Source: Ilumatobacteraceae bacterium
Lineage (GTDB): Bacteria > Actinomycetota > Acidimicrobiia > Acidimicrobiales > Iamiaceae
NCBI GenBank assembly: GCA_025463265.1
Contig: JAOBWH010000037.1
Location: forward strand, 1 to 39,402
Direction of reading: 5' to 3'
Length of the DNA: 39,402 nucleotides
The position numbers were made by a program, and so were the translations under genes. This document shows, piece after piece, positions 1,154-33,765 of the stretch (positions are counted from its first letter, which is position 1; each line of letters begins with the position of its first letter). The notes beneath the pieces were generated by a model. The model did not search any database. It was not told where the DNA came from and was given only the letters and a program-made list of their open reading frames with translations.

Positions 1154-1287
1154 GGCATGTCCACCTGTCGTCCCGGTCGTGCCACCGCAGCCGTCCCGCC
1201 CCTGCGGCCCATCCCGCCCCCAGCATACGGAGCCGGGCCCGGGGCCAGGGTCGTGTAGCGGTCCGCCGCTTGGGGTACACCGGACAG

Positions 1288-2253: not shown

Positions 2254-2256
2254 CGT
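2251..2256 (+). promoter_or_regulatory. Leaderless -10 box of the LLM oxidoreductase gene
   Basis: TAGCGT is followed by 7 nt and then GTG 2264, matching the TANNNT-N6/7-start pattern seen before several other genes here. Its first three bases are the TAG stop codon of the preceding polymerase gene. Confidence 0.5.
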
Positions 2257-2263
2257 CCCGCCG

Positions 2264-3247: not shown

Positions 3248-3283
3248 CCGCCGACACCGACACCGGCGCCCCGCGTGACGTCA

Positions 3284-3301
3284 CTTGACCGGTCAGTCAA
3301 G
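3284..3301 (+). promoter_or_regulatory. Palindromic operator-like site before the P450 gene
   Basis: CTTGAC-N6-GTCAAG forms 6-bp inverted arms, and the overlapping TGACCGGTCA (3286-3295) is a perfect 10-bp palindrome. The size and the GAC/GTC composition resemble operators of TetR-family repressors. It abuts the P450 -10 box, so a bound repressor would block transcription. Confidence 0.5.
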
Positions 3302-3307
3302 TACGGT
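3302..3307 (+). promoter_or_regulatory. Leaderless -10 box of the P450 gene
   Basis: TACGGT is followed by 6 nt and ATG 3314, predicting a transcript that starts at or next to the start codon. This supports ATG 3314 over the in-frame GTG at 3275. Confidence 0.5.
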
Positions 3308-3313
3308 GCGTCC

Positions 3314-4609
3314 ATGCGCGAAACCGCCCCGACCATCGCCCAAGCCGAGTTCTGGCGGAGACCGCTCCAAGCCCGCATGGATGACTTCGCCGCCATGCGC
3401 GCCGAGTCGCCGTTCACCCGGTCCGAGATCCCGAACCTGCTCACCAACGAGACCGACGAGTTCTACGCCGTCACCCGCTACGCCGAGCTCGTCGAGATCA
3501 GCCGCCACCCGCAGGATTTCTGCTCGGGCAAGGGCAGCACGAACATCTCCGACATGCCGCCCGAGGCGCTGGAGTTCTTCGGCTCGTTCATCGCCATGGA
3601 CGATCCCCGGCACGCCCGCCAGCGCGGCATCGTCGCCCGCTCGTTCACGCCCCGCAAGCTCCAGGGCGTGCTCGACTCGGTGGAGACCATCTGCACCGAG
3701 GTCATCGACGACCTGTGCGAGCAGGGCGAGGCCGACCTCGTCGAGGCGCTTTCCCAGCCGTTCCCGCTCCTCGTGATCTGCGACATGATGGGCATCCCCC
3801 GCAGCGAGTTCGGCACCGTCCTGCGGGCCACCAACGTGATCCTCGGCGGCGGCGACGCCGAGATGATGGGGCTGCCCGCCACGGACGGTGGGGCGGTCGA
3901 TCCGAACGAACTGATCGGCGCGTTCTTCGGAGCCGGGATGGAGCTCATCGGGCTCATGAACGAGCTCGCTGAGTTCCGGCGGAAGAACCCCACCGACGAC
4001 CTCACCTCGGCGCTCGTGCACAACGATCTCGGCGAGGACATGTTGACCCCGGAGGAGATCGGGCCGTTCTTCATCCTCTTGGCGGTGGCCGGCAACGACA
4101 CCACCCGGACTGCGATCAGCCACGGCATGCACCTGCTCTCGCACAACCCCGACCAGCGCAAGATCTGGCAGGACGACCTCGACGGCGTGAGCGGCACGGC
4201 GGTCGACGAGATCGTGCGGGTCGCCTCGCCGGTCACGTTCATGCGCCGCACCGTCACCCGCGACCTCACGCTCTCGGGCCACGACTTCAAGGCGGACGAC
4301 AAGCTCATCCTCTTCTACGGCGCCGCCAACCGCGACCCTCGCGTCTTCGACGATCCGGAGCGCTTCGACGTCCGCCGAGACCCGAACCCGCACGTCGGCT
4401 TCGGCGGTCCCGGTCCGCACTTCTGCCTCGGTGCCCACCTGGCCCGACGGGAGCTGTCGGTCGCGTTCCGCCAGCTCCTCACCCGCCTCCCCGACATCGA
4501 GGTCACGGGCGAGCCCGTCCTGCTCGATGCGCTGGGCGTCCCGCTCGTCGGAGGCATCAAGCACCTCCCCGTCGCCTTCACCCCGACCGCGAGGGTCGGC
4601 GCCGCCTGA
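3314..4609 (+). CDS. Cytochrome P450
   Basis: 431 residues, soluble bacterial class I size. Haem-thiolate signature FGGPGPHFCLGAHLAR with the axial Cys at about 371; I-helix oxygen-activation motif AGNDTTR at about 259-265; K-helix ExxR in DEIVR; a haem-propionate Arg in FMRRT. The haem motif resembles those of the CYP124/125/142 group that oxidises sterol side chains and methyl-branched lipids, but the family cannot be fixed without alignment. It needs a ferredoxin and reductase; none adjoins it. An upstream in-frame GTG (3275) would place the operator-like palindrome inside the coding sequence, so ATG 3314 is preferred. Expression is probably repressed by a TetR-type protein acting on 3284-3301. 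Confidence 0.93.
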   Translation: MRETAPTIAQAEFWRRPLQARMDDFAAMRAESPFTRSEIPNLLTNETDEFYAVTRYAELVEISRHPQDFCSGKGSTNISDMPPEALEFFGSFIAMDDPRHARQRGIVARSFTPRKLQGVLDSVETICTEVIDDLCEQGEADLVEALSQPFPLLVICDMMGIPRSEFGTVLRATNVILGGGDAEMMGLPATDGGAVDPNELIGAFFGAGMELIGLMNELAEFRRKNPTDDLTSALVHNDLGEDMLTPEEIGPFFILLAVAGNDTTRTAISHGMHLLSHNPDQRKIWQDDLDGVSGTAVDEIVRVASPVTFMRRTVTRDLTLSGHDFKADDKLILFYGAANRDPRVFDDPERFDVRRDPNPHVGFGGPGPHFCLGAHLARRELSVAFRQLLTRLPDIEVTGEPVLLDALGVPLVGGIKHLPVAFTPTARVGAA

Positions 4610-5277: not shown

Positions 5278-5726
5278 ACTGACCCGTGCTCGCCGATGTC
5301 GGGCTCGGTCTTGGTGATCTTCGCCTTCACGAGCCCGATGGCGGCTTTGGCTGCGTTCGGCGCGGTCCACCAGGACCCGTGCTCGACGTCGATCCGCAGG
5401 GCGATGGGCGACTGGTCCTCCTGGAACCAGGCACCCGAGACGGGGTCGCCCAGCTCTTCGATGACCGCCGGATCGCGCACCAGCTCCGCGGTGCCGGTCG
5501 CCGACACCCAGGTCTTGTCGTCGACGAAGGAGAGGTGACCCGAGCCGCCGGTCTGGCCGAGCCACTCCGCGCCGTCGCCGACCAGGAACCACACCCGGTC
5601 GCCGTCGACCTTCTGCACGGTGAGCGGCCGGGCCTCCAGGCCGTCATCGCCGTCGAGGGTGAGCATCGCCACCCGGATGCCGTCGGTGAGGTCGGCCAGG
5701 GTGCGGGTTTCGTCGGTGGAGGACAT
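5271..5726 (-). CDS. Pyridoxamine 5'-phosphate oxidase-like (general stress protein 26 type) flavin-binding protein
   Basis: 151 residues from ATG 5726. The split beta-barrel pattern of the PPOX/general stress protein 26 family is visible: TLADLTDGIRVAMLTL at the start, ARPLTVQKV, VWFLVGDGAEW, a VSATGTAELV strand, and the C-terminal WW-containing segment. Family members bind FMN, F420 or haem; several are general-stress proteins with no known substrate. It lies 44 bp downstream of the transglutaminase-like gene on the same strand, so it may be the last gene of the ATP-grasp/alpha-E/transglutaminase operon, though a separate promoter is possible. The cofactor is not decidable from sequence. 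Confidence 0.75.
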   Translation of the reverse strand: MSSTDETRTLADLTDGIRVAMLTLDGDDGLEARPLTVQKVDGDRVWFLVGDGAEWLGQTGGSGHLSFVDDKTWVSATGTAELVRDPAVIEELGDPVSGAWFQEDQSPIALRIDVEHGSWWTAPNAAKAAIGLVKAKITKTEPDIGEHGSVS

Positions 5727-5770
5727 GGCGACCACTCCCCACGCGACGATGGCCCGAACCTCGGACCAGA

Positions 5771-6616
5771 TCAGGCCTTGCGGACGAGCTCCACGCTGAC
5801 CTCGAGCTCCTGGTCGGCCCGACCGGCGTAGATGCCTCGGAAGGGGGCGACGTCGTGGTAGTCCCGGCCGGCGGCGACGCGGATGTGGCGCTCCTCCACC
5901 GGGTTCAAGCTGGTGGGATCGAGCGGCCAGACCGTGCCGGTGAACGCCGCCACCCACGCGTGGCTCTCGCCGACGATGGCCTCGTCGATCTCCGCCTTCG
6001 GGTCCGGGTGCAGGTAGCCCGACACGTACCACGACGGGATGCCCATGGCCCGCAGGAGGGCCAGCGACACGTGGGCGAAGTCCTGGCACACGCCGGACCC
6101 CGCCGCCAGCACCTCGGGCGACGTGGTCTTCACGCCGGTGCTCCCCCGCTTGTAGTCGAGCCGCTCGTTGACCCAGGCCGATGCTGCCTCGGCCGCCTTC
6201 GCCGGCGTGTCGTGCGCCGCCGCCAGCTCCGCCGCGACGGCGGCCAGCTCCTCGTCCCACGTGACGCTGGTGGTGGGGACCAGCAGCTCCTCGAACTGGT
6301 CGCGGATCTGCGGATCGGCCAGGTCGTCCCAGCTGGCGTCGCCCGGACGAGCGGGCTCGGTGGCCGTCTCCACGGTCGACCGCCCGATGACCGTCAAGGC
6401 CTGGTGCGGCACCTGGAGGTCGAAGTGGTGCACCACCGAACCCCAGTAGTCGACGTGGCGCACGACCCGGGTGGAGGGCTCCACCTCCACCCGGCTGGCC
6501 AGCACCGCCTGGTGCCGGTCGCTGCGGGGCTCGAGCCGGGCCTCGTTGTAGGACTGCGACACCGGCGCCGAGTACCGGTACCTGGTCGTGTGCGTGACCT
6601 GCAGCCGCCACGTCAT
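5771..6616 (-). CDS. Transglutaminase-like cysteine peptidase-fold protein
   Basis: 281 residues from ATG 6616, whose ATGA overlaps the stop of the alpha-E gene, showing translational coupling. N-terminal beta domain (RLQVTHTTRYRYSAPVSQSY) typical of bacterial transglutaminase-like proteins, then the catalytic domain: Cys in GSGVCQDFAH (about 177), His in ESHAWV (about 219), Asp in PLDPTSL (about 233). All three triad residues are present, so it is probably active as a peptidase or amide-transferring enzyme. The family is constantly found beside alpha-E and circularly permuted ATP-grasp genes and is thought to act on the peptide they make. There is no signal peptide, so cytoplasmic. A start seven codons upstream would lengthen the overlap and is not preferred. 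Confidence 0.9.
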   Translation of the reverse strand: MTWRLQVTHTTRYRYSAPVSQSYNEARLEPRSDRHQAVLASRVEVEPSTRVVRHVDYWGSVVHHFDLQVPHQALTVIGRSTVETATEPARPGDASWDDLADPQIRDQFEELLVPTTSVTWDEELAAVAAELAAAHDTPAKAAEAASAWVNERLDYKRGSTGVKTTSPEVLAAGSGVCQDFAHVSLALLRAMGIPSWYVSGYLHPDPKAEIDEAIVGESHAWVAAFTGTVWPLDPTSLNPVEERHIRVAAGRDYHDVAPFRGIYAGRADQELEVSVELVRKA

Positions 6617-20765: not shown

Positions 20766-23258
20766 ATGGCTGACACCACCCAACCCTCGACCGAGCTGCT
20801 GACGCTGCCCGTGCTCCCCCTGCCCAACGGCGTCGTGCTCCCCGGGATGGTGCTCACCATCGCCCTCGAGTCCGACGAGGCGAAGGCCGCGGTCGAAGCC
20901 ACCGGCGACGACAACCGGCTGCTGCTCGTCCCCCGCGTCGATGGCCGCCACGCCGTCGTCGGCACCATCGCCACCATCGAGTCCACGGGGGCGCTGCCCT
21001 CCGGAGTCCCCGCCCTCGTGGTGCGGGCGCACGACCGGGCGCTGCTGCGCACGGGCGTGGCCGGCACCGGGACGGTGCTGTGGCTCCAGGCCGAGCCCGT
21101 CCACCCCGAGGTCACCGACGAGGCCCGCACCCTCGCGGTCGAGCTGCGCGCCGGCTTCCGCGAGCTGTTCGAGGAGATGGGTGGGCGCAGGCTGAACGAG
21201 ATCCTCCGCGGTCTCGACGAGCCCGACGCCCTCGCCGACGCCGCCGGCTGGTGGCCCGAGCTGTCGCTCGAGCGCAAGATCGAGCTGCTCGAGACCGTCG
21301 ACGTCACCGACCGGATCCGCCGGGTCCTCGGCTGGGTGAAGGAGTCCCTGGCCGAGCACGCCATGCAGGAGAAGATCCGCACCGAGGTCAGCGAAGGCCT
21401 GGAGAAGAACCAGCGCGAGTTCATCCTCCGCCAGCAGCTCTCGGCCATCCGCAAGGAGCTCGGCGAGCTCGACGAGGAGGGCGGCGAGGCCGCCGACTCC
21501 CCCGCTGCGTACCGCCAGAAGCTGGCCGAGCGCGACCTGCCCGCCGATGTCCGCACCGCCGCCGAGCGCGAAGTCGAGAAGCTCGAGCGCAGCTCCGAGC
21601 AGTCGCCCGAGCGGGGCTGGATCGTCACCTGGCTCGACACCGTGCTGGAGATCCCCTGGGGGGAGCGCTCCACCGACAACCTGGAGCTGGACAACGCTCG
21701 CGCCGTGCTGGACGCCGACCACACCGGCCTCGACGAGGTGAAGGACCGCATCGTCGAGGAGCTGGCGGTCCGCAAGCTCCGAGCCGAGCGGGCCGAGGAG
21801 GCGGCCCGCGCCGCCGAGCTCAGCGCGCTCCAGGAGGCCGCCGCCGCCAAGGTGCTCTCCGGAGCAGCCGACGACGACGGCCCCGCCGACACGGCAACGG
21901 CGGAGGACGGGTTCGTCTCGCCCCAGCCGGTCCGGCAGGGCACGATCCTCACGCTCGTGGGGCCGCCCGGGGTCGGCAAGACGTCGCTCGGCGAGTCCAT
22001 CGCCCGGGCGCTCGACCGCTCGTTCGTGCGGGTCGCCCTCGGCGGCGTGCGCGACGAGGCGGAGATCCGGGGCCACCGCCGCACCTACGTCGGCGCCCGG
22101 CCAGGGCGGCTCGTCCGGGCCATGACCGAGGCCAAGACGATGAACCCGGTCGTCCTGCTCGACGAGATCGACAAGGTCGGCAACGACTGGCGGGGCGACC
22201 CGTCCGCCGCCCTGCTCGAGGTCCTCGACCCGGCGCAGAACCACAGCTTCCGGGACCACTACCTGGAGGTCGACCTGGACCTGTCGGATGTGATCTTCAT
22301 CGCCACCGCCAACCAGCTCGACACCATCCCCGGGCCGCTGCTCGACCGCATGGACATCATCTCGCTCGACGGGTACACCGAGGACGAGAAGGTCGCCATC
22401 GCCCGAGACCACCTGCTGTCCCGTCAGCTGGAGCGGTCCGGGATCAAGCCCGACGAGGTGACCATCACGGAGCCGGCCCTGCGCCGGATCGTCCGGGCCC
22501 ACACCCGCGAAGCCGGCGTCCGCTCCCTGGAGCGGGCCCTCGCCAAGGTGCTCCGCAAGGTGGCCGCCCAGGTCGCCGCCCGCACCGGTGAGCCGGTCGT
22601 GGTGGACGAGGCCGAGGTGGCTGAGCTGCTCGGCCGCGACCGCTTCCACGACACCGACATCGCCGACCGCACCTCGGTGCCGGGCGTGGTCACCGGCCTG
22701 GCCGTCACCGGCGCCGGCGGCGACGTCTTGTTCGTCGAGGCCACGGCGCTTCCGGCCGACGGTGGCGATGCCGAGAAGTCCGACCTGCTGGTCACCGGCC
22801 AGCTCGGCGACGTCATGAAGGAGTCGGCCCGCATCGCCCTCTCCTACGTCCGGGCCAACAGCGGCTCGCTCGGCATCCCCTCGGGCGCTGACCGCCGGGC
22901 GGTGCACGTGCACTTCCCCGCCGGCGCCACGCCGAAGGACGGTCCGTCCGCGGGCATCGCCATGAGCACCGCCCTGGTCAGCCTGTTCACGGGCCGGGCG
23001 GTGAAGTCGACGATCGCGATGACCGGCGAGGTGACCCTCCAGGGCCACGTCCTGCCGATCGGCGGGGTCAAGCAGAAGGTGATGGCGGCCCACCGGGTCG
23101 GCATCCGGGAGGTCATCTTGCCGATCCGCAACGAGCCGGACATCGACGACATCCCCGTCCACATCCGCGACGAGATGACGATCCACCTCGCCAAGACGGT
23201 GGACCAGGTCATCGGCTGGGCCCTCGAGCCGGCCGCTCAGGCCGAAGCCGCCGCCTAG
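20766..23258 (+). CDS. lon: ATP-dependent protease Lon (LonA)
   Basis: 830 residues from ATG 20766. Lon N-domain starts with LPVLPLPNGVVLPGM; helical FILRQQLSAIRKELGE; AAA+ domain with Walker A GPPGVGKTS (about 400-408), Walker B VVLLDEIDKVG and the sensor EVDLDLSDVIFIATAN. The protease domain holds Ser728 in PKDGPSAG and Lys771 in GGVKQKVMAAHR, 43 residues apart as in E. coli Lon. It degrades misfolded and regulatory proteins in the cytosol. Odd feature: where other Lon proteins go almost directly from LAVRKL to the Walker A strand, this one has about 50 extra residues (about 342-390), helical then acidic (SGAADDDGPADTATAEDG). Confidence 0.96.
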   Translation: MADTTQPSTELLTLPVLPLPNGVVLPGMVLTIALESDEAKAAVEATGDDNRLLLVPRVDGRHAVVGTIATIESTGALPSGVPALVVRAHDRALLRTGVAGTGTVLWLQAEPVHPEVTDEARTLAVELRAGFRELFEEMGGRRLNEILRGLDEPDALADAAGWWPELSLERKIELLETVDVTDRIRRVLGWVKESLAEHAMQEKIRTEVSEGLEKNQREFILRQQLSAIRKELGELDEEGGEAADSPAAYRQKLAERDLPADVRTAAEREVEKLERSSEQSPERGWIVTWLDTVLEIPWGERSTDNLELDNARAVLDADHTGLDEVKDRIVEELAVRKLRAERAEEAARAAELSALQEAAAAKVLSGAADDDGPADTATAEDGFVSPQPVRQGTILTLVGPPGVGKTSLGESIARALDRSFVRVALGGVRDEAEIRGHRRTYVGARPGRLVRAMTEAKTMNPVVLLDEIDKVGNDWRGDPSAALLEVLDPAQNHSFRDHYLEVDLDLSDVIFIATANQLDTIPGPLLDRMDIISLDGYTEDEKVAIARDHLLSRQLERSGIKPDEVTITEPALRRIVRAHTREAGVRSLERALAKVLRKVAAQVAARTGEPVVVDEAEVAELLGRDRFHDTDIADRTSVPGVVTGLAVTGAGGDVLFVEATALPADGGDAEKSDLLVTGQLGDVMKESARIALSYVRANSGSLGIPSGADRRAVHVHFPAGATPKDGPSAGIAMSTALVSLFTGRAVKSTIAMTGEVTLQGHVLPIGGVKQKVMAAHRVGIREVILPIRNEPDIDDIPVHIRDEMTIHLAKTVDQVIGWALEPAAQAEAAA

Positions 23259-23264
23259 CGAACC

Positions 23265-23286
23265 CGACCCCACCCGGATCGGGTCG
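23265..23286. terminator. Hairpin between convergent lon and arsC-like genes
   Basis: CGACCC (23265-23270) and GGGTCG (23281-23286) are 6-bp arms with a 10-nt loop, filling the 28-bp gap between the two stop codons. No U tract. Confidence 0.4.
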
Positions 23287-23643
23287 TCAGTCCTGCAGGA
23301 AGGCGGCGACCCGGTCCTTGGGACGGCCGATGATGGCCTGATCGCCCTTCACGATGACCGGGCGCTGCATGAGGCGCGGGTACTGGTCGAGGAGCTCGGC
23401 CACGGCCTTCGGGTCGGTGTAGTCGCCTTCGACCAGGCCCTGCTCCTTGAAGAACCCGTCCTTGCGGACCAGGTCGGCCGGGGGGTCCACCAGCTTGTCC
23501 ATCAGGTCGAGCAGCTCCTCGGCCGACAGGGGCGTCTTGATGTACTGGACGACGTCGGCGTCGACGCCGGCGGCGGTCACCTCGTCGAGCGCGTGCCGCG
23601 AGGTGGAGCAGTTCGGGTTGTGGAACAGGGTCACGTCAGCCAT
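23287..23643 (-). CDS. ArsC/YffB-family thioredoxin-fold protein (arsenate reductase-like)
   Basis: 118 residues from ATG 23643, placed 6 nt after a TAGGGT box. Single redox Cys12 in FHNPNCSTSRHAL; middle YIKTPLSAEELLDLMDKL and the diagnostic LMQRPVIVKGDQAIIGRPKDRV close to the C-terminus. In glutaredoxin-linked ArsC the Cys forms a mixed intermediate with arsenate; related YffB and Spx proteins do other jobs. The canonical NPxCSKS is NPNCSTS here, so the basic residue after the Cys is absent and arsenate activity is uncertain. No arsenic genes adjoin. Confidence 0.8.
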   Translation of the reverse strand: MADVTLFHNPNCSTSRHALDEVTAAGVDADVVQYIKTPLSAEELLDLMDKLVDPPADLVRKDGFFKEQGLVEGDYTDPKAVAELLDQYPRLMQRPVIVKGDQAIIGRPKDRVAAFLQD

Positions 23644-23649
23644 GCGCCG

Positions 23650-23655
23650 ACCCTA
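23650..23655 (-). promoter_or_regulatory. Leaderless -10 box of the arsC-like gene
   Basis: Minus-strand TAGGGT, 6 nt, ATG 23643. It lies in the 26-bp gap after the substrate-binding protein gene, so the arsC-like gene has its own promoter. Confidence 0.5.
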
Positions 23656-23669
23656 CCGACCCGGGCCCG

Positions 23670-25367
23670 TCAGCCGCCGGGGCCGGGTGAGGGGTAGCTG
23701 GGCGGGACGGCGTCGGCGGGGAGCTCGTCGTACATGGCCACGGCGCCATCGGGATCGAACACGTTGACGGGCGTGTGGGGCATCTCGCCGGGCAGGTAGC
23801 GCTTGCCGCCATCGGCGGACATCATCATCCCCTTGCCCTCCTCGCCCTGCTCGTCGGGCCCTTCGGCCTCGGCGTCCCACCAGATCACCTGCATGTCGTC
23901 GACGGCGTTGAAGTCCGGGGCCCGGAACAGGTCGTGGTCGCCCCAGGAGAGCCTCGGGTTGGTGGGCAGGCCACCGCTCGGCGGATAGGCGAACAGGCCG
24001 TCGCGGAACGTCTCGGGGGTGAGCCTCGGACCGGCCTGGTGGATGCCGGCCATGAGGATCCGGATCGGCTCGTTGATCACGGTCACGGTCTTCTTGGCGG
24101 CCGGCGGCTCGCCGTAGAACCACTCGTAGTTCCGCCATGACTCGCTCTTCTCCAGGGGGAGGCGGGCGGGCAGGCTCGACACGCCGAACGCGTGGGCCCA
24201 CTGCTCCTGGTCGTAGAGCCGGCCGAACACCGTCGTGTCGGTGAGCACGGTGCCGGTGATGATCCACTCGGGGAAGTAGTTCTGGTCGGTGGCCGCCTTG
24301 GTCAGATAGATCGGCATGACCGGGTCGCCGAGGAACACGACCGAGGTGACCTTGGCCTTCTTGAGCTGGTCGACGATGACGCGGGCCTTCGCCGGCAGGT
24401 CGGCGATGACCAGCTGGTAGGTGAGGCTGATGGCCGGCTCGTAGCCCCGGTCGCCACCCTCCTTGGCCACCTGTTCCTCGACGGCGCCGAACACGGGCGG
24501 GTCCTGCTCGAAGTGCACCACGCCGAAGTTCCGCGTCTGGGATCGGAGCTCTGCGCTTCCGGCGAACTCGGCCTTCTTCCCGAGCAGCCGCTCGATGATG
24601 AAGTCGCCGAGGTTGAGCAGGTACTGCTCCGGTGTCTGGAGGTTGCCCCACAGGAACGGCGCGTTGTCCTGGAGCGCCGAGTCCGGCAGCGACAAGCCGC
24701 AGCCCACGCAGACGACGCCGCGCCGCGCCAGCTCCTCGGCGTAGGCGCCTTCCTGGCCGGGACCGCCGATGGAGGCGAACGCCTTGATCTCCTCGGCCAC
24801 CTTCACCGCGTCGGCCTTGGCGGACGTCTCATCGGAGCCCGAGCCCTTCATCCGGACGACCTTGATCTCCCGGCCCCAGGTCTCGTAGGTCTGGGCGAAC
24901 ATCTCGATGATCTTGTCGCTCGTGTCGGCGGTGGCCTCCGGGGGGTCGAGCTGGGCGTTGAGGCTGGCGGCGAGGTCGTCGTCGGCGGCCACGTAGGCCA
25001 CGACGGTGATCTCCGTGTCGGTCACGCCCTGACCGCTCACGTTGCGCTTGACGTCGGGCCGGGCGGCCACGCAGGGCGGGGCGTACAGCGACGGCACCTT
25101 GATGCGACCGGTCTTCGGGTCGCAGTTGTCGCCGAAGTCGTACTGGTCGAGCTCGTCTTGCTCCTTGGCGTCCTGGTAGTAGACGGGCAGCTGCGCGTTC
25201 GCCGAGCCGGTCGTGGTCTTGGACCCCGGCCCGGCGGCGGTCACCTCCTCGGTGCCGGTGGACGAGATGAACCCCACCGCTGCCAGGGCGATGAGGATCA
25301 CCACGAGCGGCCCGAAGCGGGCCACGAGCGAGGAGCGGGGCGGCGGGGTGGCCGTGCGTGGGGTCAT
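23670..25367 (-). CDS. Membrane-anchored ABC transporter substrate-binding protein
   Basis: 565 residues from ATG 25367, which overlaps the stop of the MFS-ABC fusion gene by four bases. One N-terminal hydrophobic segment (GPLVVILIALAAVGFISS, about 19-36) without a lipobox acts as a signal anchor. The rest looks like a type-1 periplasmic-binding fold: GVTDTEITVVAYVAADDD strand, a first lobe with SIGGPGQEGAYAEELARRGV, then DQLKKAKVTSVVFLGDP and FPEWIITGTVLTDT, hinge-type elements of the LivK group. It is longer than usual LivK proteins (about 370-400). Cys pairs (DNCDPK with PPCVAA; VVCVGCG) may form disulfides. Third gene of the coupled transporter operon; ligand unknown, possibly an acid or lipid precursor given the lipid genes nearby. 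Confidence 0.85.
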   Translation of the reverse strand: MTPRTATPPPRSSLVARFGPLVVILIALAAVGFISSTGTEEVTAAGPGSKTTTGSANAQLPVYYQDAKEQDELDQYDFGDNCDPKTGRIKVPSLYAPPCVAARPDVKRNVSGQGVTDTEITVVAYVAADDDLAASLNAQLDPPEATADTSDKIIEMFAQTYETWGREIKVVRMKGSGSDETSAKADAVKVAEEIKAFASIGGPGQEGAYAEELARRGVVCVGCGLSLPDSALQDNAPFLWGNLQTPEQYLLNLGDFIIERLLGKKAEFAGSAELRSQTRNFGVVHFEQDPPVFGAVEEQVAKEGGDRGYEPAISLTYQLVIADLPAKARVIVDQLKKAKVTSVVFLGDPVMPIYLTKAATDQNYFPEWIITGTVLTDTTVFGRLYDQEQWAHAFGVSSLPARLPLEKSESWRNYEWFYGEPPAAKKTVTVINEPIRILMAGIHQAGPRLTPETFRDGLFAYPPSGGLPTNPRLSWGDHDLFRAPDFNAVDDMQVIWWDAEAEGPDEQGEEGKGMMMSADGGKRYLPGEMPHTPVNVFDPDGAVAMYDELPADAVPPSYPSPGPGG

Positions 25368-28300
25368 GGGACCTCCGGAGGAGCGGCGGGGCCCGTGGTG
25401 GGCCCGGAGCGGGTGAGGACGGCGCGGTCGCCGCCCAGGTAGGACGCGACCACCTCGGGGTGGGCGAGGACGTCGCTGGGCTGACCGATGGTCACGACCC
25501 GGCCCTGGTCGAGGGCGACCAGCCGGTCGGACACCGTGGCGATGAGGCCCATGTCGTGCTCGATGACGATGAGGCTGGCGTCGAGGGCGTCTCGGATCGT
25601 CAGCAGCAGCGGCGCCAGCGCCTCCGCCTCGCGCTGGGCGATGCCCGACGACGGCTCGTCGAGCAGGACCACCGACGGCTCGTGGGCCAAGACGCAGCCG
25701 ATGTCGACGACCCGCCGGGAGCCGGTGGAGAGCTCGCCGATGAACTTGGAGCGGAACGCCTGGAGCCCCAGCAGCTCGATGAGCTCGTCGACGCGGTGGC
25801 GGGCGGCGGCCTCGCTGTCGACGAGGGGCGGGAGGTGGAGGGCGGCGTTGAAGGGGTCGCGCACGTCGAGCCAGCGCTCGAGGGCGACCAAGAGCGTCTC
25901 CTCGACCGTCAGCGACGGGAACAGCCGCGAGTCCTGGAAGCTGCGGCCCAGCCCGAGCGCGGCCCGGCGGTGCGGCCGAGCATCGGTGAGGTCCACATCG
26001 CCCAGGCGGACGTGGCCGGCATCGGGACGGGTGAAGCCCGAGATGAGGTCGAGCAGCGTCGTCTTGCCGGCGCCGTTCGGGCCGATGAGGCCGACCACCT
26101 CCCGGGGCGCGACCGAGAACGACACCGCGTCCACCGCCCGGATGCCGCCGAACGCCACGGACAGCTCCTCGACGGCGAGACCGGGACCCGACGATTCCTC
26201 GCTGTGGCCGTTCGAGGCGACCGGACCCGAGCGCACCGCCACCGACGATCTCGTCGACCTGCCCGAACCCCCAGACCCGTTGGCGCCGGCCAGCCCGGAG
26301 GCCGCACCCTGGAAGAAGACCGACCGCAGCACATCGGGCCGGTCGAGCAGCTCCGAGGTGGGCCCGTGGAACCGGATCTCGCCCTTCTCCATGAAGTACG
26401 CCGTGTCGGCCACGGTGAGCGCCACGTTCACCGACTGCTCCACGAGGATGATGGTGGTGCCGCGGTCGCGCAGGCCCCGGACCACGCCGAGGAGCTGCTC
26501 CACCACCACCGGCGCCAGGCCGAGGGACAGCTCGTCGATCATCAGCAGCTTCGGCTCGGACAGGAACGCCATGGCGAGCGCCAGCATCTGCTGCTGACCG
26601 CCGGAGAGATCCGCCGCGGCATCGTCGGCGCGCGCGGCGAGCACCGGGAACAGGGCCAGCGCCTCGTCGACCCGGGCGGACCGCAGCACCGGGTCCTTGC
26701 GGAGCATCCACCCGGCAGCCCGGAGGTTCTCGGCGACCGTGAGCGAGGGGAACACGCCCTGGCCACCGGGCACCTGGGCGATGCCGAGCGGGGCGATCTC
26801 TTCCGGCGGCGCGTGGGTGATGTCCCGCCCGTCGAACACGATGGCGCCCCGGTCGGCCTGGGCCACGCCGGAGATGGCCTTGAGGAGGGTGGACTTGCCG
26901 GCGCCGTTGGTCCCGAGCAGGGCGATCACCTCGCCCTCGGCCACGTCGATGTCCACGCCGAACAGCACCCGGACGTCGCCGTAGGCGACCTGGACGTTGC
27001 GGACGCTGAGCAAGGGCAGCTTGCCTGCGGCGCGCTCCTGGATCATCTGGGCGCGCGTCGCTGCTCCCGTCCAGACCTGGGCGATGTCGTCGTCGATCAC
27101 CTTGCCGACCGATGCGATGACCAGGCCGCCGATCAAGAAGATCGGGACCATCACCGCCATGCCCCAGCGGAAGCCGTGGTTCTCGCCGATCCACCCGATG
27201 AGCGGCAGTGCGAGCAGGCCGGGCAGGACCCACAGCGCCCCGATGGAGAAGCCCATCGAGCGGGCACGAGGCGGGATGGCCAGCGAGAGCGACGAGAGCA
27301 CGCCGGGGCCGACGATCACGAGCGAGGCCGAGATGACGCAGTTGGCCGCCACGGCGACGATGACGTTGGGTGCGGCGGCGAACACCAGGGCGGTCACGCA
27401 CGCCACCGCCGAGGCCGCGCCCAGGATCCCGAAGATGTTCGACGCCCCCTTGGTGAGGGCACGGGTCGTCAGCCGGGCGCCGACCACCACGCCCACCAGC
27501 TCCACGAGCTGGACCGGGATGAGCGCCCACGCCCGCTCCCATGCATCGAGCCCGAACACCTCCTCGTACATGAGCGAGGCCAGCGACAAGAACCCGATGA
27601 TCGAGGCGGCGAGGAACGGCAGGGCGATGAAGATGCGCCGCAGGCTGCGGATGGTCCACACCATGCGCAGCGCCTCGGCGAACGACGGCGGCGGCTCGTC
27701 CACCGTGGTGTCGATGCCGAGATCGGCCGCCTCGCGCTCGAAGTGCCCCCGGCCCGGATCCCGGAGCTTGAGGCCGAGGACCACCAGGACGAGCGTGGGG
27801 AAGGCGAAGACGATGAACGGCGCCCGCCAGGTGAAGAGCGTGGCCAGCCCGGCACCGATCAGGAACCCGAGGATCTGGCCGACGCTGTTGGCCGCCCGGT
27901 GGATCGAGTACACCCGCGGCCGAGACCGGATCGGGTAGTAGTCCGCGAGCAGGCTGTTGTGGGTGGGGAACACCACGCCCTGGCCGATGGCCGCGCCGGA
28001 CCGAGCCGCGATCAGCACCCAGATCGTGAACGCCAGGCCGGTGGCGAACGAGAAGAAGGCCCAGACCACCGCGCCGAGCAGGGCGATGGCGATGCGGCTC
28101 CGGCGGTCGGCCATGTGGGCGATGGGGACCGTCAGGAGCAGGGCGACCGCACTGGCCAGCGCGACGACGCTCAAGATGGCGCCGTTGGTGAGGTGCAGCG
28201 AGTCCCGGATGTCCGGCAGCAGCACGTAGTACGCGGCGCGGTCCAGCTCGTCGGTCATGTTGAGGCCGAAGAGGATCAGCAGGGGGTACCAGCCGGCGCG

Positions 28301-28387
28301 GCCCAGCCACTCCGGGCGCCAGCGCGACGCCTCGGGCACGGGCTCGGCTGAGGCCGGCATCTCTTCGGGCACGGCGGTCGCGGTCAT
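25364..28387 (-). CDS. MFS transporter-LivF-LivG triple fusion
   Basis: 1007 residues from ATG 28387. Residues about 25-435 are a 12-helix MFS carrier: LLILFGLNMTDELDRAAYY, PIAHMADRRSRIAIALLG as the motif-A-like loop, and FPTHNSLLADYYPI. After a linker (430-457) comes a LivF-type ATPase: Walker A GTNGAGKST (about 490), VPGGQGVFPSLTVAENL, signature LSGGQQQML (about 592), Walker B LLMIDELSLGL (about 613). A Gly/Ser-rich linker (about 695-735) leads to a LivG-type ATPase: Walker A GPNGAGKTT (about 767), LGRSFQDSRLFPSLTV, signature LSTGSRR (about 884), Walker B VVLLDEPSSG (about 904), switch VIEHDMG. It overlaps livHM and the binding-protein gene by ATGA at both ends. An internal start at Met448 could also yield a separate double ATPase. 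Joining a secondary carrier to both ABC ATPases in one chain is very unusual. Confidence 0.92.
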   Translation of the reverse strand: MTATAVPEEMPASAEPVPEASRWRPEWLGRAGWYPLLILFGLNMTDELDRAAYYVLLPDIRDSLHLTNGAILSVVALASAVALLLTVPIAHMADRRSRIAIALLGAVVWAFFSFATGLAFTIWVLIAARSGAAIGQGVVFPTHNSLLADYYPIRSRPRVYSIHRAANSVGQILGFLIGAGLATLFTWRAPFIVFAFPTLVLVVLGLKLRDPGRGHFEREAADLGIDTTVDEPPPSFAEALRMVWTIRSLRRIFIALPFLAASIIGFLSLASLMYEEVFGLDAWERAWALIPVQLVELVGVVVGARLTTRALTKGASNIFGILGAASAVACVTALVFAAAPNVIVAVAANCVISASLVIVGPGVLSSLSLAIPPRARSMGFSIGALWVLPGLLALPLIGWIGENHGFRWGMAVMVPIFLIGGLVIASVGKVIDDDIAQVWTGAATRAQMIQERAAGKLPLLSVRNVQVAYGDVRVLFGVDIDVAEGEVIALLGTNGAGKSTLLKAISGVAQADRGAIVFDGRDITHAPPEEIAPLGIAQVPGGQGVFPSLTVAENLRAAGWMLRKDPVLRSARVDEALALFPVLAARADDAAADLSGGQQQMLALAMAFLSEPKLLMIDELSLGLAPVVVEQLLGVVRGLRDRGTTIILVEQSVNVALTVADTAYFMEKGEIRFHGPTSELLDRPDVLRSVFFQGAASGLAGANGSGGSGRSTRSSVAVRSGPVASNGHSEESSGPGLAVEELSVAFGGIRAVDAVSFSVAPREVVGLIGPNGAGKTTLLDLISGFTRPDAGHVRLGDVDLTDARPHRRAALGLGRSFQDSRLFPSLTVEETLLVALERWLDVRDPFNAALHLPPLVDSEAAARHRVDELIELLGLQAFRSKFIGELSTGSRRVVDIGCVLAHEPSVVLLDEPSSGIAQREAEALAPLLLTIRDALDASLIVIEHDMGLIATVSDRLVALDQGRVVTIGQPSDVLAHPEVVASYLGGDRAVLTRSGPTTGPAAPPEVP

Positions 28388-30531
28388 CGCGGCGAGCCCA
28401 CCGGTTCATCGGCCGCCGAGCCGTCGAGCCCCTGGGGCCGGTCCGGCATCACGACCTTGATGGCCTCGGGGGCCTCGTCGCCCCCCGAGTCCTCCAACAG
28501 GCTGGCGACCACGATCCCCCGCCGACGGGCCAGCGCCCGGAGCGCGCCGTCGCGGGCCCGGTACATGAGGTTGCCGAGACCGCCCGGGACGATCATCAGC
28601 ACCAGCAGGACGCCGATCGCGGAGGGCAGCAGGTTCCAGGGTGGGTCGAGGAACCACTCCCCGCCCTGGAGGTACAGCGCCCCGAGGATGGCGCCGGCGA
28701 GCGAACCGAGGCCGCCCACCACCGCAGCGGTGAAGATGCCGAGGCTGCCGCTGGCGGCGAAGGGGCCCTCGTCGAAGCCCCGGTTCACGTGGACGAGGAG
28801 GCAGCCGGCCACGGCGGCGAGGAACCCCGAGAGGGCGAAGGCGGTGAGCTTCGCCCGCAGGACCGGGATCGAATACGCCGCCGCGCCGCGCTCGTTGTCG
28901 CGGACGGCGATGAGGGCCCGGCCCGTACGGCTGCGGCGGATGCCCAGCACGGCGAGGAAGGCGAGCACCACCACGCCGAGGACCACCTCGTACATCGCCG
29001 CCTCGGAGCCGAGGTCGAACTGGCGGAACAGCGGTCGGGCGGCGACCTCTCCCTTGGGGATCCAGGCCTGCTCCTTGCGGTTGAGCAGGAAGTTGCTGCA
29101 CGCCAGGGAGAACGCGAGCGTGGTGACCGCGAGGTACAGACCCGGTTGCCGCAGCGCCGGCAACCCGACGATGACGGCCACCACGGCGCCCGCTGCGCCC
29201 GCGGCGAGCAGGCCGACGAGGAGGTCGACGTGCCAGGTGGCGGTGGCGACCGCGCCCACCGCCGCCCCCACCGCGGCGAAGGCCATCTGCCCCAGGGACA
29301 CCTGTCCCGCCCAGCCGGTGAGCACCACCACGGACAGGGCGATCAGGGCGTAGGCCGCGACCGTCGAGGCGCGGAGCTCGTCGCTGGGCCCCAGCACCAG
29401 CGGCAGCGCCGCGGCGAGCACGACCAGGACCACGGGGATGAGGACCCGGAGGATGCGGACGACCGGCACCGAGCGCAGCTCGGCGGGCACCGGCCGGACT
29501 TCGTCGGCGGCCTGGAGGGTGGCGCCGTCGACGTCTCGGCGTCGGGTCGACACCCGGCGCAGCGCCAAGATCACCAGGAGCACGACGGCGAGCACGATGT
29601 AGATGCGCGCCGGGTCGCTCGGGTACTTGGCCGCGACGCCCTGATCCAGGACGCGCAGGGCGACGGCCGAGGCGGCGACGGCCACCAGGTTGTCGAGGCG
29701 CCCGATGAGCAGGGCCGACAGGGCGAAGACCAGCGCGCCGGCGCTGAGGGCGCTGGCCCCGGTGTACCCGAACATCGATGCCTCGAGGAAGAGCCCGGTG
29801 AACGAGAGGGCGGCCGCCAGGCCCCACACGAGCGTCTGGAGCCGGCGGACCGGGATGCCGAGCAGCGCCGCCCGGTCCGTGCGGTCCGCGCTGGCTCGCA
29901 GGGCGATCCCCGCATCGGTCCCCCGCAGGAAGAGCACCAGGGCGATGAGCACGAGGGGCGCCACGATCATCGCCAGGACCTCGGCGCCGTGGAAGATCTG
30001 GCTGCCGATCTCGATCCGGGCGGTGAACGGTTGGGGCACGCTGAGGTTCGTCTGGAGCTTCTTGGTGTCCTCCTCGTCCCAGAGGCGCGGGAGCAGCAGG
30101 CCGCAGATCACGAGGAGCTGCGACAGCCCGATCGTCGCCACGGTGAGCAGGAGGCGGGGTGCCTTGAAGAAGCGCCGGATGATGGCCAGCTCCACGACGG
30201 CGCCCAGCACGATCGCCGCGGTCAGCCCGATGAGCAGCCCCGCCAGGTACGGCAGACCCGATGCGGCGATCAAGCCGACGGCCAGGGTCACCGGCACCGC
30301 CCCGAGGTCCGCCTGGGCGAAGTTCAAGATCCGGTTCGACCGGTAGATGAGCGCCAGGCCCAGCGCGACGAGCGCCGTCAGCAGCCCGACGACGACGCCC
30401 AGGATCCAGGTTCCGAGCCCGATCGGGAACAGCACGAGCTGCAGCACGATGATGCCGATCGCCGGGACGTACGGTCCGAGCGGGCGCAGGGCGGCAGGCA
30501 GCTGGAGTTCAAGGTCGCGACGACGACTCAT
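28384..30531 (-). CDS. livHM: LivH-LivM fused branched-chain-type ABC permease
   Basis: 715 residues from ATG 30531. The N-half (1-330) is a LivH-like permease: ALGLALIYRSNRILNFAQAD carries the LivH hallmark, with IALRASADRTDRAALLGI as coupling loop. The C-half (about 375-665) is LivM-like: LTGWAGQVSLGQMAF (about 402-416), ALIAVRDNERGAAAYSIPV (about 535-553, coupling loop), GGLGSLAGAILGAL. A charged joint of about 45 residues (RRVSTRRRDVDG) separates them. Together they would form both transmembrane halves of one transporter for amino acid-like or carboxylate ligands. First gene of the operon, followed by the MFS-ATPase fusion (ATGA overlap). A candidate promoter/operator lies at 30611-30629. 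Confidence 0.93.
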   Translation of the reverse strand: MSRRRDLELQLPAALRPLGPYVPAIGIIVLQLVLFPIGLGTWILGVVVGLLTALVALGLALIYRSNRILNFAQADLGAVPVTLAVGLIAASGLPYLAGLLIGLTAAIVLGAVVELAIIRRFFKAPRLLLTVATIGLSQLLVICGLLLPRLWDEEDTKKLQTNLSVPQPFTARIEIGSQIFHGAEVLAMIVAPLVLIALVLFLRGTDAGIALRASADRTDRAALLGIPVRRLQTLVWGLAAALSFTGLFLEASMFGYTGASALSAGALVFALSALLIGRLDNLVAVAASAVALRVLDQGVAAKYPSDPARIYIVLAVVLLVILALRRVSTRRRDVDGATLQAADEVRPVPAELRSVPVVRILRVLIPVVLVVLAAALPLVLGPSDELRASTVAAYALIALSVVVLTGWAGQVSLGQMAFAAVGAAVGAVATATWHVDLLVGLLAAGAAGAVVAVIVGLPALRQPGLYLAVTTLAFSLACSNFLLNRKEQAWIPKGEVAARPLFRQFDLGSEAAMYEVVLGVVVLAFLAVLGIRRSRTGRALIAVRDNERGAAAYSIPVLRAKLTAFALSGFLAAVAGCLLVHVNRGFDEGPFAASGSLGIFTAAVVGGLGSLAGAILGALYLQGGEWFLDPPWNLLPSAIGVLLVLMIVPGGLGNLMYRARDGALRALARRRGIVVASLLEDSGGDEAPEAIKVVMPDRPQGLDGSAADEPVGSPR

Positions 30532-30610
30532 GAGCAGCAGACGACTCCCCTGGTGCAGTGGTTGCGGTGGTGCGGTGGATGCACCGGGCGTCCCCTGCCC
30601 GGCGAAAGTC

Positions 30611-30629
30611 CTTGCACTCTACCTGCAAG
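30611..30629 (-). promoter_or_regulatory. Palindrome overlapping a -10 box upstream of the transporter operon
   Basis: CTTGCA-N7-TGCAAG is a perfect 6-bp inverted repeat about 80 bp before livHM ATG 30531. Read on the minus strand, its spacer contains TAGAGT, a TANNNT -10-like hexamer, so a bound regulator would block initiation. The spacing equals that of the HspR HAIR element, but the arm sequence differs. Regulator unknown. Confidence 0.4.
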
Positions 30630-30645
30630 TTGTTGGGCGTGCCGG

Positions 30646-30915
30646 TCAGACGCAGCCCTCGATGGCGACGGCCAACCGGGTGTCGCGAGCCGTCAGCCGG
30701 CCCACGTCGTGGCTGGTCAGCTCGATGACGACCCGGTTCCACGAGTTGGACCAGTCGGGGTGGTGGTTCATGCGCTCGGCTTCCGCTGCGACCCGGGTCA
30801 TGAACGCCCAGGCCTCGGCGAAGTCCGCGAACACGAACTCCTTGCGGAGGGCGTCGCCGACGACGGCCCACCCTTCGGGCACGTCCAGCGAGGGGTCGGG
30901 CTCTCGGTCGCTCAT
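30646..30915 (-). CDS. 4a-hydroxytetrahydrobiopterin dehydratase (PCD/DCoH)
   Basis: 89 residues from ATG 30915, with AAGGAG 6 nt upstream; an in-frame start at 30930 would lie before that site. The PCD signature is clear: catalytic [13 protein letters not shown] (50-62, the two His and the following Trp) and [18 protein letters not shown] (65-82). The enzyme dehydrates the carbinolamine formed by pterin-dependent aromatic amino acid hydroxylases; many bacteria carry it for moco-related or unknown pterin roles. No hydroxylase is in view. It lies two bases after the stop of the large membrane protein gene, same strand, so it is probably co-transcribed with it. Confidence 0.92.
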
Positions 30916-30917
30916 CG

Positions 30918-32906
30918 TCACTCCTTCCAAGATGGGATGGCGTCGGCGAGCTCGGCGCGGGTCAGGACCCGGAGCTCGAGCACGTCGTCTTCGTTCACGG
31001 TCGGGGCGGGGAGGAGACGCTGCAGCTCGTCGATCTGGTCGCCGTCGAAGGTGGGCGACTCGTAGTAGCCGTCTTCGATGAGCTGGAGCAGCTTCGCATC
31101 GGTGAGGATCGGCTCGGGTGCGAACGCGATGTCGTCGAGCAGGCCCTTGGCGTAGACCCGGCTCATGGGGTCGTAGCGCTCGGCGAGGAGCCGGTCGGCG
31201 TCCGCGCCGGGCACGGGATCAGCCGAGCGGGCCTGGTCCACCAGCGGGGTCAGGACGCTGCGCAGGTCGTCGTTGATGTCGTAGCGGGCGATGGTGCGCC
31301 CGGACAGGCCTTCTGGGGCGACGCCGCGGCCCGTGGCCAGCAGGAGGATGAGATCGCCCGGGTCCTCGTCCTTCTCGAGCACTCGCTGATCGCCCCAGAA
31401 CCGGTCCTCCTGCTCGGGGACCACGACGTCGTAGCCGGCGGCCTCCAGCTGCAGGGCCATGGCCTGGCCGGTGGAGAGGACCGCCGCCTTCCCCCGCAGG
31501 ACCAGGGTCACCCGGTCCGCACCCGCCTCCTCCGCTGCGTCGATCGCCGCGTCGCTCATGGCCCGCATGGCCACGAACCCGTCGCGGTCCCGGCGGGCGT
31601 CGTTGTAGCCCTCGGTGGTGAGGTTCCCGATGGTGGGGACCAGCATCACCACCACGGCGAGCGCCGGTGCGAAGCGGGGCAGGGCCGCCGGCACCGGCCG
31701 GCCGCGGCGCGCCAGCAGCGAGCGGACGGCGAGTGCCCCCACCCACCCGAACGTGAGCCACAACAGCCAGGCGGCCACGAACTCCCAGCGGTAGAAGTTG
31801 ATCCGGTACGCCTCGATCGAGTTCGGGATGGTGCTGCCGTTGCAGGTGCCCGCCGCGGCCAGCAGCAGGGCGATGAGCGCGAGGAGGGCGAGGGTCCGGC
31901 GTCGCGTCCACGCCACCACGACGGTGGCGACCAGCACGCCGTACCCGGCCAGGCCGACGATCAGCTCGAGGGGGGTCAGCGGCCCGACCGAGAACGATCG
32001 GCCGGTGAGGTCCGAGCGCGCCAGCAGCGGCGGGAACCCGGTGGTCCGGATGGCCTGGCGGAACGCCGCGGTCCAGCCGAGCGACGGCGAGTCCGAGAGG
32101 CGGGCGTACTCCGCGACCGCGGTGAGGTTGCCCGGGTCGCCGGTGAGCTGCTGCCAGATGACCGGCGACCAGAGGACCAGACCCAGGGCTGCGGCCCCCG
32201 TGACCCACGGCCACAGACGGGGCGGATCGAGGTCCCCAGCGCTCGGGCGGCGGCGCCGGACGGCGAGGACGATCACCCCGACCACGGCGGCGAGCACCAT
32301 CGCGGCGGCGGGCACCACGATCGCCAGGTGCTGCTGGGCGACCCACGACCCGAACAGCGCCCCGAGCGGGAGCAGCCGGATGTCGCCGTCGACCACCGCC
32401 CACGCCAGCACGGCCAGGGCGACGAGCGGGATGGCGCCGGCGTTGGACGAGATCGGGTCGCTCAAGATGGCGGTGCCCTCGCTCCAGAGCAGGAGCGACA
32501 GCAGGACCATCGCCCAGGCCGCCACCGCCGGTCCGGCCCGGCGCAGGACCACCCACGCCGCCACGAGCACCGCCGTCAGGTTCACCGCTGCGCTGCCGAG
32601 GATCATCCCGGCCGCCGGTCCGAGCAGCCGCATGGGGACGGCGAGCCAGTAGAACTGGATGGGTCCCGGGTGCGACGTGCCGCCCTCCTGCCCGTAGAGG
32701 TGCGTGGTGCTCCCCTGCCCGATCAGCGGCCGGTGCGAGGTCGCCACGTCCCAGCTGCGCAACCCGATCAGCGCGTCGTCGCCGCTCGGCACCCAGTGCA
32801 TCGACCGGGCGCGCAGCACGCTCGACGCGAACGGTGCCACCACGAGCAGCACCATGGCCACACCGACGAGGGCCTGGCGGCGCGTCAGGTCTCGGAGGCG
32901 GAACAC
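30918..32906 (-). CDS. Large polytopic membrane protein, GT-C glycosyltransferase-like
   Basis: 662 residues from GTG 32906; the frame extends into sufC, but TAGGCT 7 nt upstream and the first hydrophobic helix support this start. About 11-12 membrane helices occupy residues 12-430 ([20 protein letters not shown] first). The first external loop, [20 protein letters not shown], has the acidic pair expected in GT-C lipid-linked glycosyltransferases, followed by [18 protein letters not shown]. The C-terminal 220 residues are a soluble extracytoplasmic domain. Similar actinobacterial proteins are annotated as hypothetical or arabinosyltransferase-like; donor and acceptor are unknown. The carbinolamine dehydratase gene follows at once, without an evident functional link. 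Confidence 0.75.
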
Positions 32907-32913
32907 GCGCCGG

Positions 32914-32919
32914 AGCCTA
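32914..32919 (-). promoter_or_regulatory. Leaderless -10 box of the GT-C-like gene
   Basis: Minus-strand TAGGCT, 7 nt, GTG 32906. It separates this gene from the suf cluster ending at 32977. Confidence 0.5.
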
Positions 32920-32976
32920 CGGCCACCCTGGGCGAGGGCTCGGGCGCCAGGACCGGCCGTCGCCGCCTGCGAGGGC

Positions 32977-33765
32977 TCAGGCGAGGGGATCAGCGAACGG
33001 GTCGCCGGCGACGGCGGCCGGCGCCTCGGACCCAGCGTCGGGCAGGTAGGCGGCGTAGCCGTCGACCTCGAGCTCATCGGCCAGCTCCGGGCCACCGGTC
33101 TTGACGATCCGACCCCGGGCCAAGATGTGCACCACGTCAGCCTTCAGCTCGTGGAGCAGGCGGGTGTAGTGGGTGATCGCGAGGACCCCGAGACCGGTCT
33201 CGGTGGTGGCCTGCTCCACGCGACGGGAGCAAGCACGGAGGGCATCGACGTCGAGGCCGGAGTCCAGCTCGTCGAGGATGGCGATCTTGGGCGCGAGCAC
33301 GCCGAGCTGGAGCGTCTCGTTGCGCTTCTTCTCGCCGCCGGACAGGTCGACGTTGAGGTCGCGTCCGAGGAACCGCTCCGCAAAGCCGATGCGCTCGGCC
33401 TCGGCCGCCATCGTGGCGTGGAGGCCGGTGGCGTCCCGGCCGCCGGCGGCGAACGCGGCGGTGAGCACCGACTCGACCGACACGCCCGGCACCTCGGTGG
33501 GGTACTGGAGCGCCAGGAACAGCCCGGCCTGGGCCCGCTCCCAGGTGTCCATCGCCAACACGTCGACGCCGTCGAGGGTGACGGATCCGCCGGTGACCTC
33601 GTAGCCGGGCCGGCCCAGGATCACGTGCGACAGCGTGGACTTGCCCGAGCCGTTGGGGCCCATGACGGCGTGCACCTCGCCGGAGCGGACGACGAGGTCG
33701 ATCCCCCGGAGGATCTCCTTGCCGTCGACACCGGCGCGCAGGCCTTCGATCACGAGCTCGGACAT
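32977..33765 (-). CDS. sufC: Fe-S cluster assembly ATPase SufC (second copy)
   Basis: 262 residues from ATG 33765 (ATGA overlap with the Rieske gene). Walker [10 protein letters not shown] at 36-44, ALQYPTEVPGVSV, signature [11 protein letters not shown] at 141-151, Walker B IAILDELDSGLDVDAL at 161-176, switch His in AITHYTRLLHEL. Its place after sufD and the Rieske gene is the usual actinobacterial order, so this copy is the probable partner of SufB-SufD. It differs clearly from the first copy (18049-18819) across the middle region and tail (AAVAGDPFADPLA), so they are diverged paralogues rather than a recent duplication. Confidence 0.93.
   Translation of the reverse strand: MSELVIEGLRAGVDGKEILRGIDLVVRSGEVHAVMGPNGSGKSTLSHVILGRPGYEVTGGSVTLDGVDVLAMDTWERAQAGLFLALQYPTEVPGVSVESVLTAAFAAGGRDATGLHATMAAEAERIGFAERFLGRDLNVDLSGGEKKRNETLQLGVLAPKIAILDELDSGLDVDALRACSRRVEQATTETGLGVLAITHYTRLLHELKADVVHILARGRIVKTGGPELADELEVDGYAAYLPDAGSEAPAAVAGDPFADPLA

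Follow-up and report, generated by a model that had tools for sequence, protein, structure and literature searches.

A Liv-type ABC importer gene set with a Spinster-like MFS domain fused to its ATPases in an Ilumatobacteraceae bacterium and other Actinomycetota

ATP-binding cassette (ABC) importers of the Liv/HAAT and UrtABCDE kinds combine a LivH-LivM-type permease with LivF- and LivG-type ATPases. The same parts, with an adjoining putative binding protein, are found in the window analysed here, a stretch of 39,402 nucleotides from an Ilumatobacteraceae bacterium (GCA_025463265.1, contig JAOBWH010000037.1, positions 1-39,402). The difference is that here the four ABC domains lie on two chains and an integral major facilitator superfamily (MFS) domain is added. 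To our knowledge, ABC (primary) and MFS (secondary) transport are regarded as distinct mechanisms performed by separate proteins. This report concerns a gene that encodes an MFS domain, a LivF-like ATPase and a LivG-like ATPase in one reading frame, and the family to which it belongs.

Looser parallels have been described. In Rhodococcus jostii RHA1 the MFS carrier CamM and the ABC system CamABCD both take cholate metabolites back up, according to an excerpt of PMC8399759; they are described there as two transporters and the likeness is a functional analogy only. In the sensor kinase-MFS fusion (SK-MFS) family (TC 2.A.1.34) an MFS carrier is fused to another functional unit, but the partner is a kinase and not an ABC pump; this family and other fusions are mentioned in the excerpted text of PMC3924187. 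No MFS-ABC fusion was evident from the titles and opening abstract lines that targeted open-access PMC searches listed, with a caveat that TCDB, InterPro and subscription papers lay outside the search and may list the architecture.

The features of the fusion gene and of the two genes which adjoin it are as follows.

25364-28387, minus strand: fusion gene, MFS - LivF-like ATPase - LivG-like ATPase, 1007 amino acids (open reading frame, Pfam, NCBIfam)
27107-28300, minus strand: Spinster-like MFS carrier domain, residues 30-427 (Pfam MFS_1; family profile against solved structures)
27014-27106, minus strand: linker from transmembrane helix (TM) 12 to the first ATPase, residues 428-458 (alignment of 46 rows; D434 and G455 invariant)
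26312-27013, minus strand: LivF-like ATPase, residues 459-692 (Pfam, NCBIfam, motifs)
26183-26311, minus strand: Gly/Ser-rich linker, residues 693-735 (sequence)
25430-26182, minus strand: LivG-like ATPase, residues 736-986, signature LSTGSRR (Pfam, NCBIfam, motifs)
28384-30531, minus strand: fused LivH-LivM permease, 715 amino acids, two BPD_transp_2 stretches; its stop overlaps the start of the fusion gene (ATGA)
23670-25367, minus strand: putative substrate-binding protein, 565 amino acids, N-terminal hydrophobic stretch; its start overlaps the stop of the fusion gene (ATGA)

At the gene level the one-chain MFS-LivF-LivG fusion is real. The first-pass annotation had proposed a single 1007-codon frame with these three domains, and this holds: the frame runs without a stop from 28387 to 25364, Pfam finds MFS_1 at residues 42-383 (E 1e-37) and ABC_tran two times, and NCBIfam places a UrtE/LivF-side ATPase at about 460-680 and a UrtD/LivG-side ATPase at about 737-985. 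The MFS domain was also said to be a complete 12-helix unit. The 12-helix fold is assigned through the MFS profile matches, since a crude hydropathy scan, although it showed 12 peaks, failed to pick up TM1 and divided some helices. The statement that both ATPases carry all their motifs stands for Walker A, Q-loop, signature and Walker B; at the H-loop position the first ATPase has Gln (VEQ). As noted earlier, the window copy has a Gly/Ser-rich second linker; across 63 relatives this linker is 16-92 residues long. The LivG signature had been called unusual, and this is rejected: LSTG is invariant in 46/46 aligned relatives and an ordinary LivG elsewhere in the source genome has LSTGS. A split into two products near Met448 finds no backing in a conserved internal start (ATG in 6/46 aligned relatives, GTG in 14/46), with a caveat that a minor start may exist there.

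A urea transporter was considered and rejected. The whole-protein scores that exceed the UrtD/UrtE cut-offs are the sum of two ATPases; scanned singly, the ATPases score 191-205 bits against curated NCBIfam cut-offs for LivF, LivG, UrtE and UrtD of 286-441, which neither reaches. The permease likewise stays below the NCBIfam cut-offs for LivH, LivM, UrtB and UrtC (about 61 bits versus 250-296 for UrtB/UrtC). The set expected of a Liv/HAAT-type importer is present: domain matches give two BPD_transp_2 domains and ATPases of the LivF and LivG types, and the putative binding protein is assigned by gene position and by matches of its family (see below).

The fusion is widely conserved in actinobacteria, beyond chance. 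The survey covered Actinomycetota, namely 296 genomes of the class and other classes of the phylum. With the MFS part plus the first ATPase residues as query, 83/296 class genomes matched at E 1e-30 or better, at 119 places including the window. The other 118 were retrieved and their domains called by phmmer (L128 was replaced by the longer L216). MFS and LivF share one frame in 100 of these 118, and 56 of the 100 have a second ATPase behind LivF (three cut at a contig end, one of these called F-F); this sharing of the frame is why chance is discounted. The remaining 44 are MFS-LivF, four of them cut at a contig end. The association with LivHM and a putative binding protein that had been suggested for the window is borne out by its ATGA overlaps and by the relatives, since LivH/LivM lie nearby on the same strand in 94/100 fused matches; of the six others five reach a contig end and L209 is the exception. 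Among the unfused matches eight are cut at the contig end (six of them beside LivHM) and only 10/118 are both unfused and uncut behind the MFS. The MFS stands alone at L053, L132, L133, L134, L135 and L138. At L136 an assembly gap separates MFS and LivF, at L200 the frame is broken and ABC genes adjoin, and at L201 and L216 an unfused MFS is followed by a binding-protein gene.

In other classes of Actinomycetota, 7 genomes gave 19 matches at E 1e-25, all of which were retrieved. The fusion is present in 18/19, each beside LivHM on the same strand, and L069 stands alone. Two class matches seen only in a looser search (L054, L215) enter neither count. A plasmid search with a type B (see below) MFS part (72,556 records) gave one match at E 1e-12, in Embleya sp. 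NBC_00888. An exact short-peptide scan of genome contigs gave seven loci, one of which is an unfused carrier from a Gemmatimonadetes metagenome-assembled genome (L048), used solely as outgroup and control query. The closest named relatives are Acidimicrobiales metagenome-assembled genomes and, within the Iamiaceae, Aquihabitans sp. G128, whose MFS part is 72% identical.

The first-pass annotation had also allowed for separate MFS and livF genes that only a sequencing error had brought into one frame, and an assembly error was considered as well. The source assembly is a draft (4.05 Mb in 204 contigs, with one match to the window MFS at E 1e-30), which leaves some room for such an artefact. The same order is found in 100 of the 118 class-wide matches, including places in single-contig genomes (G110, G002, G190, G003) and in Aquihabitans sp. 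G128, whose chromosome is complete. This rejects the artefact for the family, and its probability is practically negligible.

Two architectures were distinguished. In type A, the layout of the window, a LivH-LivM chain accompanies MFS-LivF-LivG, and a window-type binding protein lies near 51/55 class rows. The common second layout, type B, pairs MFS-LivF with LivH-LivM-LivG. Forty-five class rows were counted as type B, including the F-F row and four cut rows which may be type A; their LivG is on the permease chain in 37, separate in one and unresolved in seven. The MFS is N-terminal of LivF in all fused rows. By a rough estimate the MFS-LivF gap is 9-20 residues in 48/63 type A rows and 29-40 in 37/51 type B rows.

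Related ABC systems also exist without the MFS. Related permeases were searched in five genomes and 18 stretches were retrieved from many permease matches; in four genomes (G114, G197, G212, G221) ABC systems of the same kind had no MFS match. Their layouts vary: binding protein, LivH-LivM and LivF-LivG (L231, L233, L234, L237; L232 is similar, with no binding protein on the stretch examined), LivH-LivM-LivF-LivG in one frame (L230, L236, L238, and the cut L227 and L235), or LivF plus LivH-LivM-LivG (L239, L240). A whole Liv-type importer lies in one open frame of 1206-1424 codons, a putative single chain, at L230 (positions 750-4367), L236 and L238. Both fused types, a standalone MFS and several importer versions lacking the MFS are found together in genome G114 (L052, L053, L054, L237-L240), which offers a natural comparison set.

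A tree of the four ABC domains (LivH, LivM, LivF, LivG; 1120 columns) was built from 50 fused, 11 MFS-less and 4 ordinary rows under LG+G4 without mixture, by a quick search on hand-chosen rows, the MFS-less ones being from the four genomes named above. Fused and MFS-less rows form one clade (support 100), in which the MFS-less rows fall in three places. The approximately unbiased (AU) test rejects a single fused clade (p 3e-6) and a single MFS-less clade (p 4.5e-6). Because this tree rejects a single MFS-fused clade, repeated loss or gain of the MFS is probable. One old fusion followed by several losses would be the simplest reading, although repeated gain may have occurred instead. In the MFS tree (62 rows; controls, described below, were 19 class rows and L048) the 20 controls and the standalone L138 split off with support 99 and L132 was unplaced. 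The standalone L053, L069 and L128 were nested among the fused rows. Grouping of the fused MFS rows and these three against the rest has a support of only 36, which leaves the preference for loss over repeated gain tentative.

The MFS, too, is found with no ABC genes seen next to it. One genus provides two such cases, both in draft genomes: in G221 (L216, positions 1961-3403) and G197 (L201, positions 5606-6310; this stretch starts inside the MFS), a standalone fused-family MFS ends close to where the LivF junction would lie, and a window-type binding-protein gene comes next on that strand. In the stretches examined LivHM is missing within 4 kb and LivG within 6.5 kb, and none of the open reading frames (ORFs) listed at L216 and L201 is conspicuous as an ABC gene. 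A third member of the genus (G212, L203) has its MFS truncated by the contig end. The L216 and L201 MFS proteins are possibly binding-protein-dependent carriers. Since there are both MFS-less ABC cores and these two loci, either module can be present while its counterpart is absent from the neighbourhood.

The MFS domain itself was characterised with a family profile of 93 domains, thinned for redundancy from 122. Among solved structures 6e8j was the best match (E 1.5e-48), followed by spinster homolog 1 (E 1.6e-36), with the D-galactonate transporter close behind (E 2.9e-34) and SPNS2 next. The structure 6e8j was identified with HnSpns on the grounds that D41 and R42 occupy the positions given in the excerpted PMC9440201. 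That text names D41 and E129 as the residues behind proton switching in HnSpns and describes a relay D87-R91-D142 and a periplasmic bridge D60-R289; the bridge between TM2 Asp and TM7 Arg is among the most conserved features of Spinster (Spns) carriers according to an excerpt of a preprint on a mycobacterial Spns (PMC13192786).

Key residues were compared in 53 type A and 35 type B rows, contig-cut rows being moved to their likely type. Controls were standalone carriers of the same class: the query L048 found 30 loci, of which 7 were fused, and the other 23 with L048 made 24. Four of these were dropped, leaving 20: L185, which belongs to the fused family and is cut, and L171, L194 and L199 (survey places L135, L133 and L134); all 24 give the same picture (TM4 position basic in 0, TM7 Arg in 21). 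The motif-A relay and the TM4 Arg are shared with Spinster carriers. The relay D94-R98-D149 is intact in 52/53 type A rows, 33/35 type B rows and 20/20 controls, and the TM4 Arg (R129) is kept in 48/53, 28/35 and 20/20, respectively. The TM1 Asp-Arg pair gives a mixed picture: Asp is present in 49/53 rows of type A, to which the window belongs, but in 17/35 type B rows and 19/20 controls, and Arg in 40/53, 13/35 and 1/20. What sets the family apart from Spns carriers is its fusion to ATPases, a TM4 switch position that is often basic and a TM7 Arg position that is often acidic. By its residues the domain is Spinster-like and is not filed as Spns, because the TM4 Glu switch and the TM2 Asp-TM7 Arg bridge are mostly missing (counts below).

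The MFS does not look decayed and is about as conserved as the permease. Against eight relatives its identity to the window is 58-81%, with 56-73% for LivHM; it exceeds LivHM in seven of the eight (L046 is the exception) and is at least that of the binding protein in 6/6 relatives measured, with L043 compared over partial LivHM and a partial binding protein. The MFS dN is lower than dS against all eight relatives, although dS is unreliable in such GC-rich genes. Over the 1035 pairs of 46 fusions mean identity is 47% for the MFS, 67% for LivF and 61% for LivG.

The reading favoured here, to which an even chance is given, is a Liv/HAAT-type ABC importer with a tethered, working companion MFS carrier for the same or a related solute. 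LivH-LivM on one chain and LivF and LivG on the fusion would form an ATP-driven importer, fed by the anchored binding protein. One Spinster-like MFS per complex would be permanently tethered to LivF beside the permease, as a 1:1 complex. It would function as a genuine alternating-access carrier, handling either that same solute or a metabolically linked one, and could provide a second uptake route, or exchange or export of a product. We infer the assembly as drawn, transport by the MFS and the shared solute from sequence comparison. A companion role suits the MFS better than membership of the ABC engine, because related ABC systems do without it and it occurs without adjoining ABC genes. A working carrier is favoured because the domain and its motif-A relay are conserved and because the MFS-plus-binding-protein locus exists in one genus.

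Several observations weigh against this. The Glu of the HnSpns Glu129 position in TM4 is found in only 2/53 type A rows, 1/35 type B rows and 3/20 controls, and the position is basic in 33/53 type A and 16/35 type B rows (49/88 fused) versus 0/20 controls. Since the controls mostly lack Glu as well (Gln in 16/20, as in the window), the missing Glu does not mark out the fusion, but the basic residue does. In TM7, position 276 is acidic in 36/53 type A and 26/35 type B rows (62/88 fused) and Arg in 4/53 and 2/35, against Arg in 18/20 controls; this column was picked after viewing three neighbouring ones, and the TM7 equivalence is provisional and sequence-based. TM2 Asp is kept in 7/53 type A rows, 20/35 type B rows and 17/20 controls. 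An MFS with changed switch and gate positions may transport in a non-Spinster manner or not at all. The genomes with the MFS-plus-binding-protein locus carry many LivHM systems on other contigs, and an ABC partner in trans for the L216 and L201 MFS is possible. In a LivF-only tree a single fused clade is not rejected (AU p 0.13). No window-type binding protein lies near any of the 45 type B class rows; other binding proteins do occur among type B neighbours (Peripla_BP_6 in 21/86 neighbour ORFs of loci labelled MFS-LivF). Around triple-type loci (n = 85) the neighbour ORFs include Hexapep (12), alpha/beta hydrolase (7) and TetR (6) proteins. No consistent substrate emerges from these 86 and 85 ORFs, which were chosen by length and codon-position GC as subsets of 218 and 269; at least one Hexapep gene (L112) is oriented tail to tail with respect to the operon.

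The altered gate and switch positions, together with the placement of the fusion on the ATPase chain, would suit an MFS that has lost carrier function and serves as an extra membrane domain to anchor, stabilise or position the ATPases. This is rather unlikely, as related ABC systems manage without an MFS, which in particular disfavours an essential membrane domain, and the domain is conserved at about permease level with its relay kept. Sensor-type MFS members exist (UhpC type), and a transceptor that senses solute or product and gates the ATPases through the linker would fit the one-to-one tether and the short linker with its two residues invariant in 46 type A rows (D434, G455). D434 is, however, also kept in 77% of nine rows labelled S, some of them truly unfused, and is hence not specific to the fusion; a transceptor is judged unlikely.

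A fixed ATPase tether could also let the ATPase cycle power or gate the conformational change of the carrier, and the rarity of Glu at what the excerpted PMC9440201 presents as a proton-switch position is in keeping with that. The controls lack this Glu too (17/20), the ABC core has its own LivHM and the MFS occurs without adjoining ABC genes; an ATP-driven or ATP-gated MFS is therefore very unlikely. A bolder reading, a hybrid transporter whose conserved linker mechanically couples the tethered carrier to ATP hydrolysis by LivF/LivG, is distinctly unlikely. If true, such a complex would combine primary import with a second, linked transport step, for example an obligatory nutrient/product exchange. 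The conserved one-to-one ABC-MFS tie makes it testable whether two energy-coupling machines co-operate in one complex, and the MFS-less related systems and the MFS without adjoining ABC genes are natural controls.

In the window the order is LivH-LivM permease (upstream), fusion (middle) and putative binding protein (downstream), with an ATGA overlap at each joint. The 565-residue protein has no Pfam match of its own and no solved relative was found by sequence or profile search. It is a putative binding protein by gene position and by the Peripla_BP_6 matches of 7/28 aligned relatives; two Cys (C82, C99) are invariant across 28 aligned family members. A promoter and terminator scan of 23000-31500 gave nothing usable. 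Several Liv-type ATPase pairs lie on other contigs of the source assembly. At 30918-33095, minus strand, there is a 725-residue ORF with no Pfam match that looks like a membrane protein by eye. A small ArsC-family protein is encoded at 23287-23643; it separates the operon from a gene for a Lon protease (20766-23258).

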